A stretch of DNA of 32,329 bases, taken from a bacterium. GTDB lineage: Bacteria > Muiribacteriota > UBA9980. The stretch covers positions 1 through 32,329 of the forward strand of contig JAKPTH010000662.1 of assembly GCA_029571125.1 (NCBI GenBank), written 5' to 3'. Positions 5,473 to 23,860 of the stretch are shown here, piece after piece; the stretch's first letter is position 1, and every line of letters begins with the position of its first letter. The position numbers and the translations under genes are program-made. The notes under the pieces are model-generated. The model saw only the letters and a program-made list of their open reading frames with translations. It was not told the origin of the DNA and ran no database searches.

Positions 5473-7785
5473 TTATTTCTGATTGAGCGAGCCGAGTTTT
5501 TCTTTCCATTCCGGAGTGTCGTCGTCTCCGTCGTTGTCGTTTTCTTTATTTATTTTATTGACGAGATCTTTATCTTTTGATGAAGATGACGAATGGTGGC
5601 TCGAAGCCGGCGACGAAGACGAAGAGGAAGCCACGGCGTTGGTACGCATCGAAAGCTTGATCTTGCGTTCGTTCATATTAACTTCTATAACTTTCACTTT
5701 AACCTGCTGACCAGCTTTTACAACGTTTTCGACCTTGTCCACGCGCTCGTCGGCGAGCTGGGATATGTGAATGAGGCCTTCTATGCCGTCGTCGAATTCA
5801 ATGAAAGCGCCGTATTCCTGAATGCTTTTTACTTTTCCGTCAAGCATTTCGCCGCTGTCCATTTTTTCTTTGTAGGCGATAAGAGGATCCTGAGCGAGCT
5901 GCTTTACGCCGAGGCTCATCTTTCTGTTGTCTTTGTCTATGTTAAGCACGAGAACTTTTACGGTTTCGCCTTCTTTTAACACTTCGGAAGGATCGGAATA
6001 TTTTTTATTCCATGCGAGATCTGAAGTGTGCAGCAGGCCTTCTACGCCTTCTTCAACTTCGACGAATGCGCCGAACGAAGCGAAATGCGTAATTTTACCT
6101 TCAACCGTAGCTCCTATCGGGAAACGGGTTTCGATATCGCTCCACGGGTCTTTAGTTAAATGCTTGTAGCTTAAAGCTATTTTCTTTTCAACGGGATTGA
6201 TTTCGATTATTTTAACTTTGACCGGATCGCCGGTTTTAAGCATTTCGTTAGCGTGGTTGAGACGTTTCGTCCAGGAAAGGTCTGAAATATGGATAAGGCC
6301 TTCAATGCCTTCTTCGAGCTCTACAAAAGCTCCGAATTTTTTAACGTTGGTGACTTTTCCTTCGACTATCTGATCTACTTTGAACTTTGATTCAACCATG
6401 GTCCACGGATCTACATGCGTCTGCTTGATGCCCAGATTGATTTTTTTAGTTTCAAGGTCGAGCTTTAAAACTTTAACTTCGATGCTGTCGCCGACTTTTA
6501 AAAGCTCCGACGGATGGTTGATTTTCTTGGTCCACGATATGTTGGATATGTGGATAAAGCCTTCTATGCCGTCTTCCAGCTCAACAAATACGCCGTAGTT
6601 GAGAATGGATTTGATTTTACCGTTGGTAATAGTGTTTTCAGGATAAGTTTCTGTGACTTTTTCCCAGGGATCTTTCGTAACCTGTTTGATGCCGAGCTTT
6701 ATCTTTTTGATTTCAAGGTTGACATCTATTACTTTAGCTTTTATCTTCTGGCCCGATTTGAAATCGTTAGGCCTGGTTCTGCCGGACCACGACAGGTCTG
6801 AAACGTGGATAAGACCGTCTACGCCGGGTTCTAATGTAGCGAATACGCCGTAATCGGCTATATTTTTTACCGTGCATTCGTAGATTTCGCCGACTTTATA
6901 TTTGTCGCCGACTTCTTCCCACGGGTTCTTTGAAAGCTGTTTCAGGCCGAGGCTTATCTTTTTGGTCTTGCGGTCGAGTTTTAAAACTTTGCAGGTTATC
7001 TGGCTTCCGATCGATGAAACGACGTCCGCGGGATTTGAAACGTGGCCGTACGACATATCGGTGATATGCAGAAGGCCGTCGATGCCGCCGATATCGATAA
7101 ACGCGCCGTATTCGGTGAAGCTTTTAACCGTACCTGTAACGGTGCTGCCTTCTTGAAGGGTCGAAAATATTTTATCGAGCTTTATATTTTCTTCGGCTTC
7201 TACGAGGGCCTTGCGCGAAAGAATTATATTGTTGCGTTTTTTATTGACTTCGAGTATTTTGAAATCGTAGGAATTGCCGATGTAGTCCGAGGGCTTGCTG
7301 TCTTTTCTGTCGAGGAGCTGCGAGCTCGGAACGAAACAACGGACGCCTTTGTAGTAAGCTTCGTAGCCGCCTTTTGTGGCTTTGATAACTTTAGCTTTTA
7401 TGGGCTTGTCCGCGGCCTGGTTGTTCATTATATCGTCCCAGGCAAATTTTGCGTCAGCGCGTTTCTTGCTGAGTATGAGATCGCCGTTTTTGTCTTCGGG
7501 CTTTAAAACCATTACCGATACTTTCGAGCCCACTTCAGGCTGCTCTCCGGCATCCGTAAATTCTTCAATGGCTATAAGACCTTCTGATTTATGGCCGACG
7601 TTCACATATACGGTGTCGCTGGTAACTTTTATCACTGTGCCGCTTACGACGTTGCCGCGGGATATCGCGGCGCCTTTGCCGTCCGCAGCCGCAGCCGCGT
7701 CCATAGACGCTATTACCTGGTCCATCGTTAAATCGTTGTGCGCTTCATTTTTTTTGTTGTTTGTTCCGTTACCTGTAGTTTCCAT
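5473..7785 (-). CDS. rpsA: ribosomal protein S1-like RNA-binding protein with eight S1 domains
   Basis: A 770-residue protein built from eight consecutive S1 (OB-fold) repeats of about 75 residues, from about residue 45 to 715. Repeats 3-8 carry the strong signature 'YGAFIDI..GIDGLLHITDMSW' and similar, each closing with 'KKISLGLKQL'-like sequence; repeats 1 and 2 are more divergent, as in known S1 proteins. Classical S1 has six. The C-terminus is a low-complexity Ser/His tail followed by an acidic stretch. S1 assists mRNA binding at the ribosome, but the extra domains also allow a broader RNA-binding role. The start at 7785 has GAGGAG upstream; an earlier in-frame ATG at 7833 lacks this support. 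Confidence 0.9.
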   Translation of the reverse strand: METTGNGTNNKKNEAHNDLTMDQVIASMDAAAAADGKGAAISRGNVVSGTVIKVTSDTVYVNVGHKSEGLIAIEEFTDAGEQPEVGSKVSVMVLKPEDKNGDLILSKKRADAKFAWDDIMNNQAADKPIKAKVIKATKGGYEAYYKGVRCFVPSSQLLDRKDSKPSDYIGNSYDFKILEVNKKRNNIILSRKALVEAEENIKLDKIFSTLQEGSTVTGTVKSFTEYGAFIDIGGIDGLLHITDMSYGHVSNPADVVSSIGSQITCKVLKLDRKTKKISLGLKQLSKNPWEEVGDKYKVGEIYECTVKNIADYGVFATLEPGVDGLIHVSDLSWSGRTRPNDFKSGQKIKAKVIDVNLEIKKIKLGIKQVTKDPWEKVTETYPENTITNGKIKSILNYGVFVELEDGIEGFIHISNISWTKKINHPSELLKVGDSIEVKVLKLDLETKKINLGIKQTHVDPWTMVESKFKVDQIVEGKVTNVKKFGAFVELEEGIEGLIHISDLSWTKRLNHANEMLKTGDPVKVKIIEINPVEKKIALSYKHLTKDPWSDIETRFPIGATVEGKITHFASFGAFVEVEEGVEGLLHTSDLAWNKKYSDPSEVLKEGETVKVLVLNIDKDNRKMSLGVKQLAQDPLIAYKEKMDSGEMLDGKVKSIQEYGAFIEFDDGIEGLIHISQLADERVDKVENVVKAGQQVKVKVIEVNMNERKIKLSMRTNAVASSSSSSPASSHHSSSSSKDKDLVNKINKENDNDGDDDTPEWKEKLGSLNQK

Positions 7786-7934
7786 CAATTTCACTCCTCG
7801 TATTGCCCGAATTAATATAATGTCCGCAGGCAAAAAAACCTGACAGACGCCCTGATTGAAAGGGTTAAAAGTACGCCGGCTTTTCTTATTACAATAATCA
7901 TAAAAATATAATAATAAGTTTTTATTTTTGAAAT

Positions 7935-8128: not shown

Positions 8129-8157
8129 TTGACATATTAAAAATAATGTGTTATCAT
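8129..8157 (+). promoter_or_regulatory. consensus sigma70-type promoter of the large ncRNA
   Basis: TTGACA (8129-8134), a 17-nt spacer and TATCAT (8152-8157). The predicted start is near 8164, exactly where the 5' strand of the RNA's terminal helix begins. It diverges from the S1 promoter about 165 bp away. Confidence 0.85.
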
Positions 8158-8445
8158 TACAAAGCTTTGAACATTTAATAGTGTTCAGTTTGACAAGTGA
8201 ATAGCTCCGACAGTAATCTGCTTCACGGCAGGTTGACGTAAGGACAAAAAACCTAAAAGGGCCAGTGACCTTCGCTTGCGGAGGAAAACTGATTCCGCGG
8301 ATGAAAAGCTTTAAGGCACAGAATTATAAGTAAGGAAAATCCGGCGCGAGCCGAGTTGTACGCTTATCTTTTGAAGTGCGAAAGAGCATCGTAGGCGAAG
8401 GCCAAACAGCTTCGCGGAGGGGAGAGCCCTAAAAGGTGAAACTAC

Positions 8446-8525
8446 TAAGATGGCACGGCGCGTTAATAAGCGGTTAATCATATCGCTATTGCGCGAAGCG
8501 GACGCGAGTGATAAAAGCCATGAAA
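8446..8525 (+). repeat. repeated stem module 1 within the ncRNA
   Basis: It begins TAAGATGGCA and ends GATAAAAGCCATGAAA; ATGGC (8450-8454) pairs with GCCAT (8517-8521) to close the module. Inside is a CGCG/CGCG, AAT/ATT, AGCG/CGCT hairpin (8459-8495). Confidence 0.75.
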
Positions 8526-8582
8526 AACAGTTCGACGAAATTTCACCGGTCACCGGCGTAAGACTCGTTTGGATCTGAAGTT

Positions 8583-8642
8583 TAAGATGGCAGCTGAACC
8601 CGAAAGGCTTCAAGGCTCTCGCGAACGATAAAAGCCATGAAA
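8583..8642 (+). repeat. repeated stem module 2 within the ncRNA
   Basis: It has the same borders as module 1 (TAAGATGGCA and GATAAAAGCCATGAAA, both exact) and the same closing helix, ATGGC (8587-8591) with GCCAT (8634-8638). The interior differs: a GAAA-loop hairpin at 8596-8611. Confidence 0.75.
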
Positions 8643-8901
8643 GTAAAGCTCATGCATGCAGCGCATGAAACACTGCGCAAGATTTTTCGGGGTGCGAAAA
8701 CCGTTAAGAGGTTTAGAAAACCTGAAAACGGAAGGCCGCGCCTAGGCAAAGCGCGGAACTACTCGAAACTTTTTATTACATGGAAGAGCGAAAAACCGTG
8801 AAGAAGGAAGCAAACGTTCCCGCGAAGAAAATGCGGGCGAGAAAACGGAATAGTTAACTCTGTTCAATAAAGTTTTCTACTGCCGGCGCATATAGGCCGG
8901 T

Positions 8902-8925
8902 AAAAAGATCATTAGTGATTTTTTT
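8902..8925 (+). promoter_or_regulatory. internal terminator-like hairpin in the ncRNA
   Basis: AAAAAGATCA (8902-8911), loop TTAG, then TGATTTTTTT (8916-8925): a ten-pair weak stem whose 3' arm is a seven-T run. It could end some transcripts at about 0.76 kb, or it may simply be a structural helix. Confidence 0.35.
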
Positions 8926-9311
8926 GCTCCTATGGCGGCGGAGGAAGTTAAAGGGATTTTCATTTATGAGAATACGCGTTTGCGGTTTGTGCTTGATTAC
9001 TTAAAAGCAGGCGAAATGCTAAGAGAGTGATAGTTAAACATTTTTTACTAAATGTTTTAATTGGTGCGTTCAGCGAATACCGAAGGGCCTAAAACGGCGT
9101 ATCGGGGAGGGTTAAACCAATAAAGCCCTAGTCGAACGTAAGAAGAACTCTGAAAGCCTGAGTAACTGCATATAAGTGAGGTTTTCCCCGGAGACGGGCG
9201 AAATTCCTAAAAGCTTCATACCAAATACTTCAAGACGGCAAAATTCACTTGAACGGCTCATATTTAGATGTTCAAAGCACCTATATGAAATCAAACAAAT
9301 CAATAAAAAAA

Positions 9312-9337
9312 ACCACCGTTTATCGGTGGTTTTTTTA
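9312..9337. terminator. strong intrinsic terminator of the ncRNA (bidirectional)
   Basis: ACCACCG (9312-9318), loop TTTAT, CGGTGGT (9324-9330), then seven T. The A-run before the stem also makes it usable for the convergent gene on the minus strand. Confidence 0.92.
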
Positions 9338-9433: not shown

Positions 9434-10210
9434 TCACAGCCAGATTTCAAGGCCGTCATACGCTATTTCTATATTAAGGCCCAATTTAGCGAGCGATTCG
9501 GATTCACGCTCATGCATTATTTCATGATCTATATGCGTAAAATATGCTTTTGCGGGTTTCAGCGCTTTTACTATTTCAACCGATTCATTCAGGCAGAGAT
9601 GGGTGGAATGCGGCCGCGCCCGAAGGGCGTCTATGATTAAAACTTCAAGGCCTTCGAGTTTTTTTAGGCTTTCGGCGGGTATTTCTTTAACGTCGGGAAT
9701 ATAAGCCGCGTTAAAAAAACGATATCCGTATGTTTCGGCCTGGCCGTGAATAACGGGAATCGGAACTAATTCCACGCCGGCCGCTTCAAAATTTTGGTCC
9801 ACGGCCGAAAGCGATATGCGCGGAGTACCCCCGCCTACGGGCATTTTATCTAAAAAAATATAGGAAAATCTCCTTTTAACGTCGGAACAAAAAGAAGGCG
9901 GACCGAAGCATTTTATAGGAGGCGACGATTTAGTTTGATACGCTCTTATATCGTCAATGCCGTGAAGATGGTCGGCATGCGCATGCGTGAATAAAATAGC
10001 GTCGATGGCTTTAATTTTATACTTTAAAGCCTGAGCGCGAAAATCGGCGGAAGTATCTATCAGTATGTTGCTTGCGCCTGATTCGACTAATATGGAGCAG
10101 CGAAGTCTTTTGTTAAAACCGCTTTCAGAAGCGCAAACTTCGCAGCCGCAATTTATTTTCGGCACGCCGTGGGAAGTGCCGGTTCCAAGAAACGTTATTT
10201 TCGTTTTCAT
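9434..10210 (-). CDS. PhnP-like metallo-beta-lactamase-fold phosphodiesterase
   Basis: A 258-residue cytoplasmic metal-dependent hydrolase. The metal site 'HAHADH' (His76, His78, Asp80, His81) follows 'FT', and 'IDTSADFR' supplies the preceding strand. An N-terminal Cys cluster, 'CGCEVC' (21-26), and the opening 'FLGTGTSHGVP' are typical of the PhnP branch, where Cys residues hold a structural zinc. The C-terminal 'FTHIDHE' supplies another His. PhnP cleaves cyclic ribose phosphates in phosphonate use, but no other phn gene is nearby, so the physiological substrate is unknown. No clear ribosome-binding site precedes the ATG. Confidence 0.85.
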   Translation of the reverse strand: MKTKITFLGTGTSHGVPKINCGCEVCASESGFNKRLRCSILVESGASNILIDTSADFRAQALKYKIKAIDAILFTHAHADHLHGIDDIRAYQTKSSPPIKCFGPPSFCSDVKRRFSYIFLDKMPVGGGTPRISLSAVDQNFEAAGVELVPIPVIHGQAETYGYRFFNAAYIPDVKEIPAESLKKLEGLEVLIIDALRARPHSTHLCLNESVEIVKALKPAKAYFTHIDHEIMHERESESLAKLGLNIEIAYDGLEIWL

Positions 10211-14201: not shown

Positions 14202-15749
14202 TTACTCGCCCGAGTCGATATTTCCGCTTTTGATTTTTTCGGACATTATCTTAATTTTAACGTTATCAGAGCTTGAAGCGCCTGGCTTACCCTTAACCGT
14301 CCTGGTGTATTTAACGGCGGTTTCAGACGTTGCCGCGCCCGGTTCCGCCGCCGGGATATCTTTAATTTCAGACTGGCCTATGCTTATTATAAGCGAACTT
14401 GTATTGCCGAGCAGTTCAGCTATTTTACGTCTTTCGTCGGTCTGGATTCTTCTGGTGCTTTCGGCGTTTACGGCGCTGATTTCTTCTGTGAATTTAACTT
14501 TGAATCTTTCGAAATCCTGCGGATAATTAGCCGCAAATATTTTAATAAAGCTGTTTAAATTCGGAGATTTTCTGAATTCATCGCTTGATTTTATATTTAC
14601 GATGTTCTGATAGCCGTCATAAGGGTTGTCGTATGACATGGCGATTCTATGCAGCAGTTTGGCTATAAAAAATTCGGTATCCATGAGCTCGCCTGTATTT
14701 TTAACGGTATCGCTCCATTCCAGAGTGGCGCTAACTTCGTTAGTTCCCTTGCTGAGCCTGTAGCCTATTTTATTTGCCTGAAAATCCTTATCGGCTATAT
14801 TATCTCCGTCGTGGTTAGGGCTCAAAAAGAACGAAGCCGTAAACTCGGCGAATTCTTCTTCGAAGGCGGCCTGCGAGCTTATAACCTTGGCGCGCCAGTG
14901 CGAATCCGGCATTGGATCGCCTTTTTTCATAAATTCAACCACCTGGGTATCGGTTCTTAAATTTTCATCGACAAGAAATAAAGGGTTTCTGTCTTTATAA
15001 TCCAGGTTTATATTTCTAAGGTAAGTCGTATTATTGCTTATTACATGACCCGTTTCATGAGCCAGAACGCTGAGGCCTTCGAGTTTTGTATTTTCATTGG
15101 CCATGCTGACGAATTCGTCGTATTGAAGCATTATATAGCCCGGCGATTCGATAGTTTTAAGCCCTGATTTTGCCGCAGAAGAAGAGGGAGCGCTGAATTC
15201 TATAGGAGACGCCATCATATAGCTGGTTTTTTCTTCGGGTTTTCTGCCTACGACTATAGCGAGCGGCGGGGCTTTTGATTCGCTGATTTTTTTGAGTTCA
15301 TTGTTGTAATAATTAAGATCGAACCTGGCGTCGCTTTTGCTTATTTTTCTTTTAGCCAGCATTTCTTCGGTTTCTTTTATTTTATCGTTCAGTTCTTTTT
15401 TCTTTGCGTCAAAACGTTTTTCATGGCTTTTTTTATAAAAATCAAGCATGGCCCTGAATTCGGGATTTTCCCCCAGATGCTTTGCTGCGGCGGCCATTCC
15501 CTGCATAACGACGGGATCTTTAATATTGTTGGCGCCCGCGGCTTCAAATTCGCCGTTTTCTTTCTTAACTAAAAAAACGAAGTTTTCTGTTTGAAATGAA
15601 GGTTTAACGCTGACTTCCGACGATTCCGCGATTCTTTTTGGCTCGCCCTGTTCCTGTGCGGAAGCGGTAAAAAGAGGCGCCTGTAAAATTATTAAAAATA
15701 CCGATAATACAAGCGATATTAGTAAAATTTTTCTTTTCATACAAGTCAT
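14202..15749 (-). CDS. secreted HExxH zinc metalloprotease-like protein
   Basis: A 515-residue exported protein. The N-terminus is a signal peptide (Lys/Arg, a long hydrophobic run, then a 'TASA' cleavage-like site). A Lys/Glu-rich helical section around residues 95-150 looks like coiled coil. The zinc motif 'LAHETGHV' (His231, Glu232, His235) is clear, and 'FEEEFAEFTASFF' about 80 residues later could supply the third, glutamate ligand, as in gluzincins. Start 15749 has GAGGA six nt upstream; the longer frame from 15767 does not. It lies 79 nt downstream of another exported protein in the same direction. The substrate is unknown and the exact peptidase family is not recognised. Confidence 0.75.
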   Translation of the reverse strand: MTCMKRKILLISLVLSVFLIILQAPLFTASAQEQGEPKRIAESSEVSVKPSFQTENFVFLVKKENGEFEAAGANNIKDPVVMQGMAAAAKHLGENPEFRAMLDFYKKSHEKRFDAKKKELNDKIKETEEMLAKRKISKSDARFDLNYYNNELKKISESKAPPLAIVVGRKPEEKTSYMMASPIEFSAPSSSAAKSGLKTIESPGYIMLQYDEFVSMANENTKLEGLSVLAHETGHVISNNTTYLRNINLDYKDRNPLFLVDENLRTDTQVVEFMKKGDPMPDSHWRAKVISSQAAFEEEFAEFTASFFLSPNHDGDNIADKDFQANKIGYRLSKGTNEVSATLEWSDTVKNTGELMDTEFFIAKLLHRIAMSYDNPYDGYQNIVNIKSSDEFRKSPNLNSFIKIFAANYPQDFERFKVKFTEEISAVNAESTRRIQTDERRKIAELLGNTSSLIISIGQSEIKDIPAAEPGAATSETAVKYTRTVKGKPGASSSDNVKIKIMSEKIKSGNIDSGE

Positions 15750-15828
15750 ACGCAATCCTCGATTCAATAAAATTTAATAAATTAAAATTTTGCCGGGCTG
15801 CCGGTTAAGCGGCGATTTTACTTTATAC

Positions 15829-17016
15829 TTATTCGGTTATGAGTCCTTTATTTTCTGAAACCGCTTTTCTGAAGTATCTTTTATAATCTATAGCGCCTGA
15901 TTTTTTTGACATTTGCGCCAGGTTATAATAAAAATAACCTGCGATCGATTTTTTTAAAACTTCGGTTTTATATAATCCACTTTCACTAATTAAATTTAAA
16001 ACGGCCTCATAATTTTTAATAATATCTTTTTCACCGTCTTTTTTATTAAAGCAATTTTTGAAATTTACTGTAAAATACAAGTTATAATAGGTCGCAATAT
16101 AAATATGCTCCGGGCCGTTATCTTTAATATACTCCGAGGACGCTTTTTTTGTTTCATTAAAATATTTAAAACGGGCTTCTATAAATTCGAATATTTTTGC
16201 GTAATCGGCCGAAACGGATTTTAATTCTTTTACAGCTGCGGTTTTATTATTTTCGCCGATACCGGCGGCTGAGTAATTATAAGCGTGAAGGCCTTTAAAA
16301 TAATCGTTTAAATCTTTTAAAAAATCGCAGTTAGTTCTTTTAATGAATTTATAAAAACCGTCTTTGTTAAGATCAAAAATGCCGGCATATTTCGCTTCGA
16401 ACGATTCGATTTTATTTAAAGCATCCTGCGTTGAAATTGAAGGCTTCATGTTTAAAAAATCTTCGCCGGCGCTTTTTTCAAAATATAATTCAGGGTTGAG
16501 AGCGCATTCTGTTTCGGTAACGATTAATTTAAAAGGAATCGAAGCCGAGTAATTATTTGAATGAAAATTAATTTTTCTGGTCAATTTTTTTACTTCGTAC
16601 AGATCCGAACCGAATTTTTTTTCAATAGTTTTAATTAAATCGGCTGCGGGATATGCGGTTGAAAATTCCGCCGAAAAATTTCCATAAACCGGTTCGGTTG
16701 TGGTAAATTCAAAATCGTAAAAAATTTTACGCATATTTGAAGTTTTCAATTTTTTTGAATCGCTCTGCTTTAATTTAATGTTTTTTGAGTTAACGTTCAG
16801 CGCGGCCTTAAATTCAAAATCGCCTTCTATAAGGGGTTTGATTGAAAAGCGAAGAACGCCTGCCGAACCGGTTTTTATATTTACCGGCTTGATAAGGGCG
16901 ATATCGGCCTCATACCATTCCGGTTCCGCAATAGAGCCGGTTTCGGCGTAAGATAAATTATTGTTCAGTAAGATCATAACAATTAAAATTAATAAAAATA
17001 CATATTTATTCAGCAT
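15829..17016 (-). CDS. exported protein of unknown function
   Basis: A 395-residue protein with a clear signal peptide ('KYVFLLILIVMILLNN...SYAE'). The first half looks like a beta-rich extracytoplasmic domain. The second half is helical, Lys-rich and Tyr/Phe-rich, with possible TPR-like helices. No family is recognised. It precedes the metalloprotease gene and is probably transcribed with it, so a shared envelope role is plausible. A TATAAT box ends only six nt before the ATG, which implies a leaderless mRNA. Confidence 0.75.
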   Translation of the reverse strand: MLNKYVFLLILIVMILLNNNLSYAETGSIAEPEWYEADIALIKPVNIKTGSAGVLRFSIKPLIEGDFEFKAALNVNSKNIKLKQSDSKKLKTSNMRKIFYDFEFTTTEPVYGNFSAEFSTAYPAADLIKTIEKKFGSDLYEVKKLTRKINFHSNNYSASIPFKLIVTETECALNPELYFEKSAGEDFLNMKPSISTQDALNKIESFEAKYAGIFDLNKDGFYKFIKRTNCDFLKDLNDYFKGLHAYNYSAAGIGENNKTAAVKELKSVSADYAKIFEFIEARFKYFNETKKASSEYIKDNGPEHIYIATYYNLYFTVNFKNCFNKKDGEKDIIKNYEAVLNLISESGLYKTEVLKKSIAGYFYYNLAQMSKKSGAIDYKRYFRKAVSENKGLITE

Positions 17017-22066: not shown

Positions 22067-23860
22067 ATGAAAATAAAAATAGCCCGCACCGCGGGTTTCT
22101 GTTTCGGCGTCAAGCGCGCCATGGATAAAGTTTTAAACACGTCCAACCGCCTGCGCTCGGCGATTTATACCGACGGCCCGTTAATACACAACCCTCAGAT
22201 AGTCAAAGCGCTCGAGCAGCGCAAGATCAGCGTTCTCGACGACGCGGCGGCGCCCGGCGGCGGCTCTACCGTCGTAATACGCGCCCACGGGGTGTCTCCG
22301 GCTAGAAAAGCCTTTCTCGAATCCAGGTGCGCTCAGGTAATAGACGGCACCTGCCCGCTCGTATCCAAAATCCAGAACATAGTGAAAAAAGAAATAGAAA
22401 ATGGCCGCTACGTGATTATAATAGGCGAAGCGGGGCATCCCGAAGTCATCGGCATACTGGGTTTCGCTTCGGGCAGGGGCGCGGTTATCAACAGCGAAGA
22501 AGAGATATCGCGGCTTACTGAAGAAGCCCCGGGAAGCGGAGGCGATAAAAACAAAAACGCGGCGCAGTTCGCCGGCGGGGTATCGGTAGTGGCGCAATCG
22601 ACGCAGGAACTCGAACACTTTGAAAATCTGGTTTCGGTTTTAAAATCAAAATATAACGGCATAAAGGTTTTCAACACCATCTGCAACGCGACCAGAAAAA
22701 GGCAGGAAGAAGCCGCTCAGCTGGCGCGCGAAGTGGACCTGATGGTCATAGTGGGCGGCAAAAACAGCGGCAACACCAAGCGGCTGGCTGAAGTGGCGCA
22801 GTCTTCAAAAACTCCTGCGGTGCTGGTAGAAACCGAAGAAGAGTTGAGCGCCGGGATGTTCGCCGGCAAGCGGACGGTCGGAATAACGGCCGGGGCTTCA
22901 ACTCCGAACTGGATGATAAGAAACGTCGCGCAAAAAATAGAGGAAATATCGTATGATTCGAAACCTTTTCCATTGAGGTTGCTTAAAAAAACCGTCAATT
23001 TCCTTATAGACAGCGACATTTATATAGGAATCTGCGCTTTCGCGATGGCGTACGTGGCTTCCACGCTGATAGCTAAAACCATACACCCTTTCGAAGCCTG
23101 GCTCGCCGCGCTTTATATCTTTTCCATGCACACCCTCAACCGTTATATAGACCGCGACGCGAGCCGCTACAACAGTTCAAGCCGCAATAAGATATACCAT
23201 AAATTCGCAAGGTATATAATGGCGGGCGGCGTTCTTGCTTCGCTTTCCGTAGTGGCGCTTTCGCTGCATTTCGGCGTATGGCTTTTTTTATTTTACGTAC
23301 TTTGCTCGCTGGCGGGGGTTTTATACAGCATAAATTTCGTGCCGGTCGGCTTCCGTCCTTACGTGCGTTATGCCTCGCTCAAGGACATACCTGGTTCGCG
23401 CGACCTTTTCATTTCCACCGCCTGGGCGGTGGTGTTGACGTTCTCCCCTGCGGTAAGCGGCAAATGGATATTCGAGTGGCGGCTGCTTTTCACGTTTTCG
23501 ATAATATTCATAATGGCTTTCTGCCGCACTATAACGCTCGACATCAAAGATATACAGGGCGACAGCATAGTGGGAAAGGAGACCATACCGACGCTTATAG
23601 GAAGCAAATATTCGGTTTTACTGATGAAGTTCCTTCTTCTCTGCGCGAGCGTCATAACTATAGTGGCGGTGCTGGTGAACGAATACGAGTATTATAGCCT
23701 TTCGCTCATAGCCAATTTTGCATATATGCTGGTAATCATAAATAAATTCGGCAAAGAAACCAATTATTACGGAAATTATATAGAGGGCCTTATAGATTTT
23801 AATTTTATTTTAGCCGCGCTGTTTTTGCTTATAACCAAATGGACGTTGATTTTATTTTAG
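22067..23860 (+). CDS. ispH: fusion of IspH (HMBPP reductase) and a UbiA-type prenyltransferase
   Basis: A 597-residue two-domain protein. Residues 1-285 are a complete IspH, the last MEP-pathway step yielding IPP and DMAPP: the three iron-sulfur cysteines Cys12 ('GFCFGVKRA'), Cys96 ('GTCPLV') and Cys206 ('NTICNATRKRQ'), plus His41, His74, His124 and Glu126 in their usual contexts. From about 315 it is a polytopic membrane domain with about eight spans and both UbiA Asp-rich motifs: 'NRYIDRDASRY' (358-368, imperfect) and 'DIKDIQGDSIVGKETIPTLIG' (492-512). UbiA enzymes transfer prenyl chains to aromatic or other acceptors. GGAG precedes the ATG. The acceptor is unknown. Confidence 0.92.
   Translation: MKIKIARTAGFCFGVKRAMDKVLNTSNRLRSAIYTDGPLIHNPQIVKALEQRKISVLDDAAAPGGGSTVVIRAHGVSPARKAFLESRCAQVIDGTCPLVSKIQNIVKKEIENGRYVIIIGEAGHPEVIGILGFASGRGAVINSEEEISRLTEEAPGSGGDKNKNAAQFAGGVSVVAQSTQELEHFENLVSVLKSKYNGIKVFNTICNATRKRQEEAAQLAREVDLMVIVGGKNSGNTKRLAEVAQSSKTPAVLVETEEELSAGMFAGKRTVGITAGASTPNWMIRNVAQKIEEISYDSKPFPLRLLKKTVNFLIDSDIYIGICAFAMAYVASTLIAKTIHPFEAWLAALYIFSMHTLNRYIDRDASRYNSSSRNKIYHKFARYIMAGGVLASLSVVALSLHFGVWLFLFYVLCSLAGVLYSINFVPVGFRPYVRYASLKDIPGSRDLFISTAWAVVLTFSPAVSGKWIFEWRLLFTFSIIFIMAFCRTITLDIKDIQGDSIVGKETIPTLIGSKYSVLLMKFLLLCASVITIVAVLVNEYEYYSLSLIANFAYMLVIINKFGKETNYYGNYIEGLIDFNFILAALFLLITKWTLILF

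Follow-up and report, generated by a model that had tools for sequence, protein, structure and literature searches.

We observed that the gene-free stretch at 8164-9337 encodes a folded RNA of about 1.1 kb that is conserved, together with its structure, across at least two families of one little-known bacterial phylum and matches no catalogued RNA family, and we therefore call it a new class of giant structured non-coding RNA. The analysis was carried out on a stretch of 32,329 nucleotides (contig JAKPTH010000662.1 of assembly GCA_029571125.1; hereafter the window). The conclusion rests on sequence analysis, as no transcript has been seen, but we consider it very likely to be correct. Homologues were found in all four genomes of the window's own genus (Ca. 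Wallbacteria-type) and in a second family of the phylum, referred to here as f5. Two covariance models, R1 (central domain) and R2 (3' domain), were built from f5 RNAs only. The features of the locus are as follows.

5473-7833, minus strand: ribosomal protein S1 gene (rpsA), divergent; not a conserved neighbour of the RNA.
8129-8157, plus strand: sigma-70 promoter, TTGACA-17-TATCAT, conserved in the genus; f5 RNAs also have TTGAC at the same distance.
8164-9337, plus strand: giant structured RNA gene, with a body at 8164-9278 (1115 nt) plus a terminator tail.
8164-8178, plus strand: 5' arm of the outer end (leader-trailer) helix, beginning at the predicted +1.
8181-8237, plus strand: 57 nt identical in all four genomes of the genus.
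8189-8201, plus strand: boxA-like TTTGACAAGTGAA between/overlapping the end helices, tentative in the window; its core is nearly identical to the 16S-23S spacer site of relative G023 (TTTGACAAGTGGA).
8194-8202, plus strand: 5' arm of the inner end helix.
8446-8525, plus strand: module copy 1, TAAGATGGCA ... CGCGAGTGATAAAAGCCATGAAA.
8583-8642, plus strand: module copy 2, TAAGATGGCA ... CGCGAACGATAAAAGCCATGAAA.
8647-8804, plus strand: central domain homologous to model R1, full length 1-159.
8701-8731, plus strand: most conserved hairpin across families, CCGTTAAGAGGTTTAGAAAACCTGAAAACGG, with an AAG/GAA 3x3 internal loop.
8997-9178, plus strand: 3' domain homologous to model R2, full length 1-174.
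9243-9251, plus strand: 3' arm of the inner end helix.
9264-9278, plus strand: 3' arm of the outer end helix.
9306-9336, plus strand: intrinsic terminator, 13-bp stem with T tract, conserved as a structure in the genus.
9434-10210, minus strand: MBL-fold metallohydrolase gene, convergent; not a conserved neighbour of the RNA.

We first re-examined the locus itself, which lies in the 1.6-kb gap between the rpsA and hydrolase genes. The promoter matches the consensus at 11 of 12 positions, has a TG before the -10, and puts the start at about 8164. A perfect TTGACA-17-TATAAT promoter, presumably that of rpsA, lies back to back with it (7963-7935, minus strand). The sequence-only reading had proposed a giant structured RNA of unrecognised class with an 11-bp helix pairing its ends (8164-8174 with 9268-9278) and a nested 9-bp helix (8194-8202 with 9243-9251). 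We observed that the outer helix is real and longer than this, pairing 8164-8178 with 9264-9278 (15 nt, 93% complementary), while the inner helix is matched at 9 of 9 positions. The minimum free energy (MFE) was -354 against -306 +/- 8 for dinucleotide shuffles (z = -6.1), and the outer helix scored 13-18 in the genus against maxima of 11-13 with a shuffled 3' region. The local hairpins were re-derived from alignments. The proposed interpretation was supported, and the expectation in that reading that the RNA would exceed OLE and ROOL and rival or exceed GOLLD in size also holds, since it measures 1115 nt end to end (1.17 kb with the terminator) against 833 residues for the solved GOLLD and about 600 nt for OLE (PMC12286853, PMC9723947).

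As the RNA lies between two genes, we considered whether it might be a leader, a riboswitch or a pseudogene region. However, the neighbours run divergently and convergently, so that it leads into no gene, and it has its own terminator. The longest ATG ORF inside it is about 55 aa on either strand, and 10 of 15 gap runs between congeners are not multiples of three. This explanation is very unlikely.

We next examined close homologues. All four genomes of the genus carry one full-length copy, the other three being 95, 85 and 82% identical to that of the window. Conservation is high from the first base of the outer helix to its last, with a conserved promoter and a structurally conserved terminator, and falls off outside. 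RNAalifold on the four sequences gave -331 kcal/mol. The two closest share the rpsA/hydrolase context, while in the other two the RNA sits beside other genes, giving three contexts in all. So the unit is the RNA gene, not a leader.

Several weak blastn hits in other genomes of the phylum fell on the same 30 nt of the window RNA (about 538-569 of the body). Reading around two of them revealed complete, uncatalogued RNAs of about 1.05 kb with promoter, paired ends and terminator, and a search with one of these found it in 23 genomes of family f5 at roughly 60-100% identity. Most of the weak blastn hits at the 3' end were terminator hairpins rather than homologues, and five other hit loci (L008, L023, L026, L030 and L032) lie in long open frames. 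A pattern scan of 85,000 genomes with the duplicated AAGATGGC...GCCATGAAA module gave 15 hits, of which only the three congeners are real; the other 12 lack any neighbouring similarity and look like chance matches, probably in coding sequence. A hit in a viral contig (L051) looks the same.

Model R1 was built from 13 f5 sequences and searched against 40 genomes of the phylum. It hit 23 of 24 f5 genomes (11 genera) and all four genomes of the window's genus, but none of 12 genomes of six other families. In the window's 4.9-Mb genome the hit at 8647-8804 was the only one (E 1.2e-11), and the three congeners gave E 1.7e-11 to 8e-10. None of 342 genomes outside the phylum was hit, in a search run with stricter filters. 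Model R2 hit 8997-9178 at 43.6 bits in a direct search; it was not recovered in the genus by the genome-wide search, presumably because it was lost in the first look of that search. An nhmmer profile of the f5 RNAs also found the 5' end, and the order of 5' end, R1 and R2 is the same in both families, although the spacing differs (about 190 nt between R1 and R2 in the window against about 33 in f5). The E-values are rough, since calibration was short, but two domains, four congeners and collinearity make homology secure. In genus g16 (genomes G031, G026 and G035; loci L074, L029, L069 and L073) we observed a more diverged version of the RNA with several copies per genome, model R2 matching four contigs of G031 and three of G026.

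The multiple copies in g16 and the three contexts in four congeners could suggest a selfish or mobile element that is transcribed but has no host function. However, the RNA is single copy in nearly all genomes, no transposase or integrase was seen beside it, it is nearly universal in f5, and no phage, plasmid or viral homologue was found. We consider this explanation unlikely. Several f5 members (L056, L057, L062, L064, L066, L067 and L068) share an upstream same-strand gene for a repetitive, possibly barrel-like protein (...EPNRDLRTQFKYKIENTSK...), while other members have unrelated neighbours.

We further evaluated the covariation of the structure. On 30 matches to the R1 model, among them the four from the window's genus, 41 of 45 pairs showed compensatory double changes and 93.7% of cells paired, against 39-43% when partners were slid. 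On 17 full-length f5 RNAs there were 274 pairs, of which 190 had double changes (67-77 when slid) and 94.3% of cells paired (36-43% when slid), and the alifold energy was -284 kcal/mol against -21 to -34 kcal/mol for column-shuffled alignments. The R1 alignment was fitted to the model, which leans it towards the structure; the full-length MAFFT alignment was not, although its structure is its own consensus. A scan for pseudoknots found no convincing covarying stem outside the nested fold, the best having 3 pairs with 11 double-change cells.

Covariation of the end helices, which the sequence-only reading had named as a test, came out positive. Among all possible stems, the f5 counterpart of the inner end helix ranked first for compensatory changes. 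The outer end helix changes sequence between members (GTTGAACGAACAGAT/ATTTGTTCGTTCAAT, GTTGAGTGACTGG/CCGGTCACTCAAC, GCTTTGAACATTTAA/TTAGATGTTCAAAGC), yet begins about 32-36 nt after the start of the -35 box, where transcription should start (28 in one, where the helix finder extended it past a mismatch). This statement rests on all four congeners and on 13 of 20 f5 sequences, since in the other seven (L055, L057-L061, L075) the ungapped helix finder returned nothing better than shuffled sequence.

The consensus folds of the two families, made separately, each contain nine 3x3 internal loops, mostly of the form ANG opposite GNA, and these recur in both orientations. The window's own MFE has five such ANG/GNA loops, while shuffles average 0.08. 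R1-like second copies were observed in the 5' part of several f5 RNAs (E 5e-6 in L072, at 1166-1308, and E 6.5e-5 in L070, at 2153-2291 on the minus strand; weaker in others), and the window has the duplicated 23-nt module. The RNA thus appears to have grown partly by domain duplication.

Between the end helices, f5 RNAs carry a site like GATCTTTGACAA. A profile of these sites, run over a 4.6-kb piece of an f5 rRNA operon, ranked the 16S-23S spacer and the 16S leader first and second, where boxA antiterminators are expected, and in another genome ranked a site just upstream of 23S first (the rRNA sites of G023 and G021). The window has TTTGACAAGTGAA at the same place, close to the spacer's TTTGACAAGTGGA, but it scores only 1.7 bits by the f5 profile, so that antitermination in this genus rests on its 13-nt core and its position. 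E. coli boxA scored 3.0 bits (7.8 on the core), which carries little weight.

We also evaluated whether the RNA could be a very divergent member of a known large RNA (OLE, ROOL, GOLLD, group I/II intron, RNase P, tmRNA or an rRNA fragment), as suggested by its similar size class and end pairing and by the rRNA-like boxA (weak in the window) and leader-trailer helix. Searches against all of Rfam 15, which should include GOLLD, ROOL and OLE, gave no match for the whole window at gathering cut-offs. With E up to 5, the window RNA and f5 members gave only terminator-like low scorers and one stray low-scoring hit in a flank. The only RF00010 match in the genome is on another contig (252 bits), SRP RNA lies elsewhere in relatives and 6S lies elsewhere in f5, so these RNAs are separate where they could be found. 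ARAGORN found no tmRNA in the window, and no intron-type protein lies beside the RNA. This explanation is largely refuted and very unlikely.

GOLLD is likewise a giant, elaborately folded bacterial RNA of unknown function with many helices and separable domains, but it is borne by prophages and phages, often near tRNA islands (PMC12286853), whereas here the neighbours are housekeeping genes and no phage or viral link, and no tRNA in the window, was found. ROOL is a large ornate stand-alone RNA and a model for possible homo-oligomer formation; it too is described from phages and prophages, and the domain architecture seen here (R1, R2, ANG/GNA loops) was not matched to it. OLE is a large, highly conserved, stand-alone RNA and a candidate RNP scaffold or ribozyme, found mostly in Bacillota (PMC12054373, PMC9723947). 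Ribosomal RNA operons show the same apparent production logic of strong promoter, boxA-like element (clear in f5 but weak in the window) and long untranslated RNA with ends paired in a leader-trailer helix, but the present RNA has no detectable rRNA similarity and is monocistronic with its own intrinsic terminator. Literature searches pairing the phylum names with non-coding or structured RNA gave nothing relevant among open-access papers, so that an unseen description cannot be excluded. Giant ornate RNAs as a broad kind have precedents, but no homologous class was found. Giant structured RNA classes in bacteria are very few, and this one, present in 12 genera and nearly universal in one family, is longer than the three best known (OLE, ROOL and GOLLD). 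Part of a phylum thus appears to maintain an RNA machine nobody has described.

Taken together, this is most likely the gene of a stand-alone, trans-acting giant non-coding RNA, a divergent member of the new class. How it is made and what it forms are inferred. In rRNA operons, boxA recruits the antitermination complex; the leader-trailer helix is essential for active 30S subunits in E. coli, and tethering of boxA may help it to form (PMC10250234). The same logic suits a kilobase-long untranslated RNA with paired ends. In this scheme, RNA polymerase starts on the first base of the outer end helix and the boxA-like site just downstream recruits the NusB/S10 antitermination complex, which keeps Rho off the untranslated kilobase and tethers the 5' strand until the 3' strand emerges and closes the leader-trailer helix. 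We consider such an rRNA-like route about as likely as not. If the boxA link holds, this would be a non-ribosomal RNA made and closed the way rRNA is, which bears on how kilobase-scale RNAs fold during transcription.

The body may then form a stable particle, either an RNA-only homo-oligomer, as GOLLD, ROOL and OLE do (PMC12286853), or a protein-bound scaffold. This step is by analogy; nothing observed tells an oligomer from an RNP scaffold or a ribozyme, and a structural particle or scaffold, rather than a catalyst or antisense regulator, is again about as likely as not. A regulatory or storage scaffold that sequesters, for example, a ribosomal or RNA-binding protein, comparable to the OLE RNP, overlaps with this possibility. 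The repeated near-identical modules would suit multiple protein sites, and the RNA sits beside rpsA in two genomes of the genus (G000 and G001); however, rpsA is absent beside it in the two other congeners and no protein co-occurs at the locus, so that this specific role is doubtful. A ribozyme acting in trans, as has been argued for OLE (PMC11332333), would be in keeping with the long invariant stretches such as 8181-8237 and the nearly universal presence in f5. However, there is no known catalytic core and no hint of a substrate, and much of the conservation lies in repeated structural motifs, which makes this explanation unlikely. It is also possible, though only tentatively, that the RNA both borrows the rRNA production line (boxA antitermination plus leader-trailer closure) and assembles, through the repeated ANG/GNA internal-loop modules and duplicated domains, into a previously unseen cellular RNA particle specific to this phylum.

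Elsewhere in the window, two long ORFs of 521 and 395 aa (14202-15767 and 15829-17016, minus strand) were without any Pfam match, and one ORF at 22067-23860 is an apparent fusion of a LytB (IspH-type) domain with a UbiA prenyltransferase domain.
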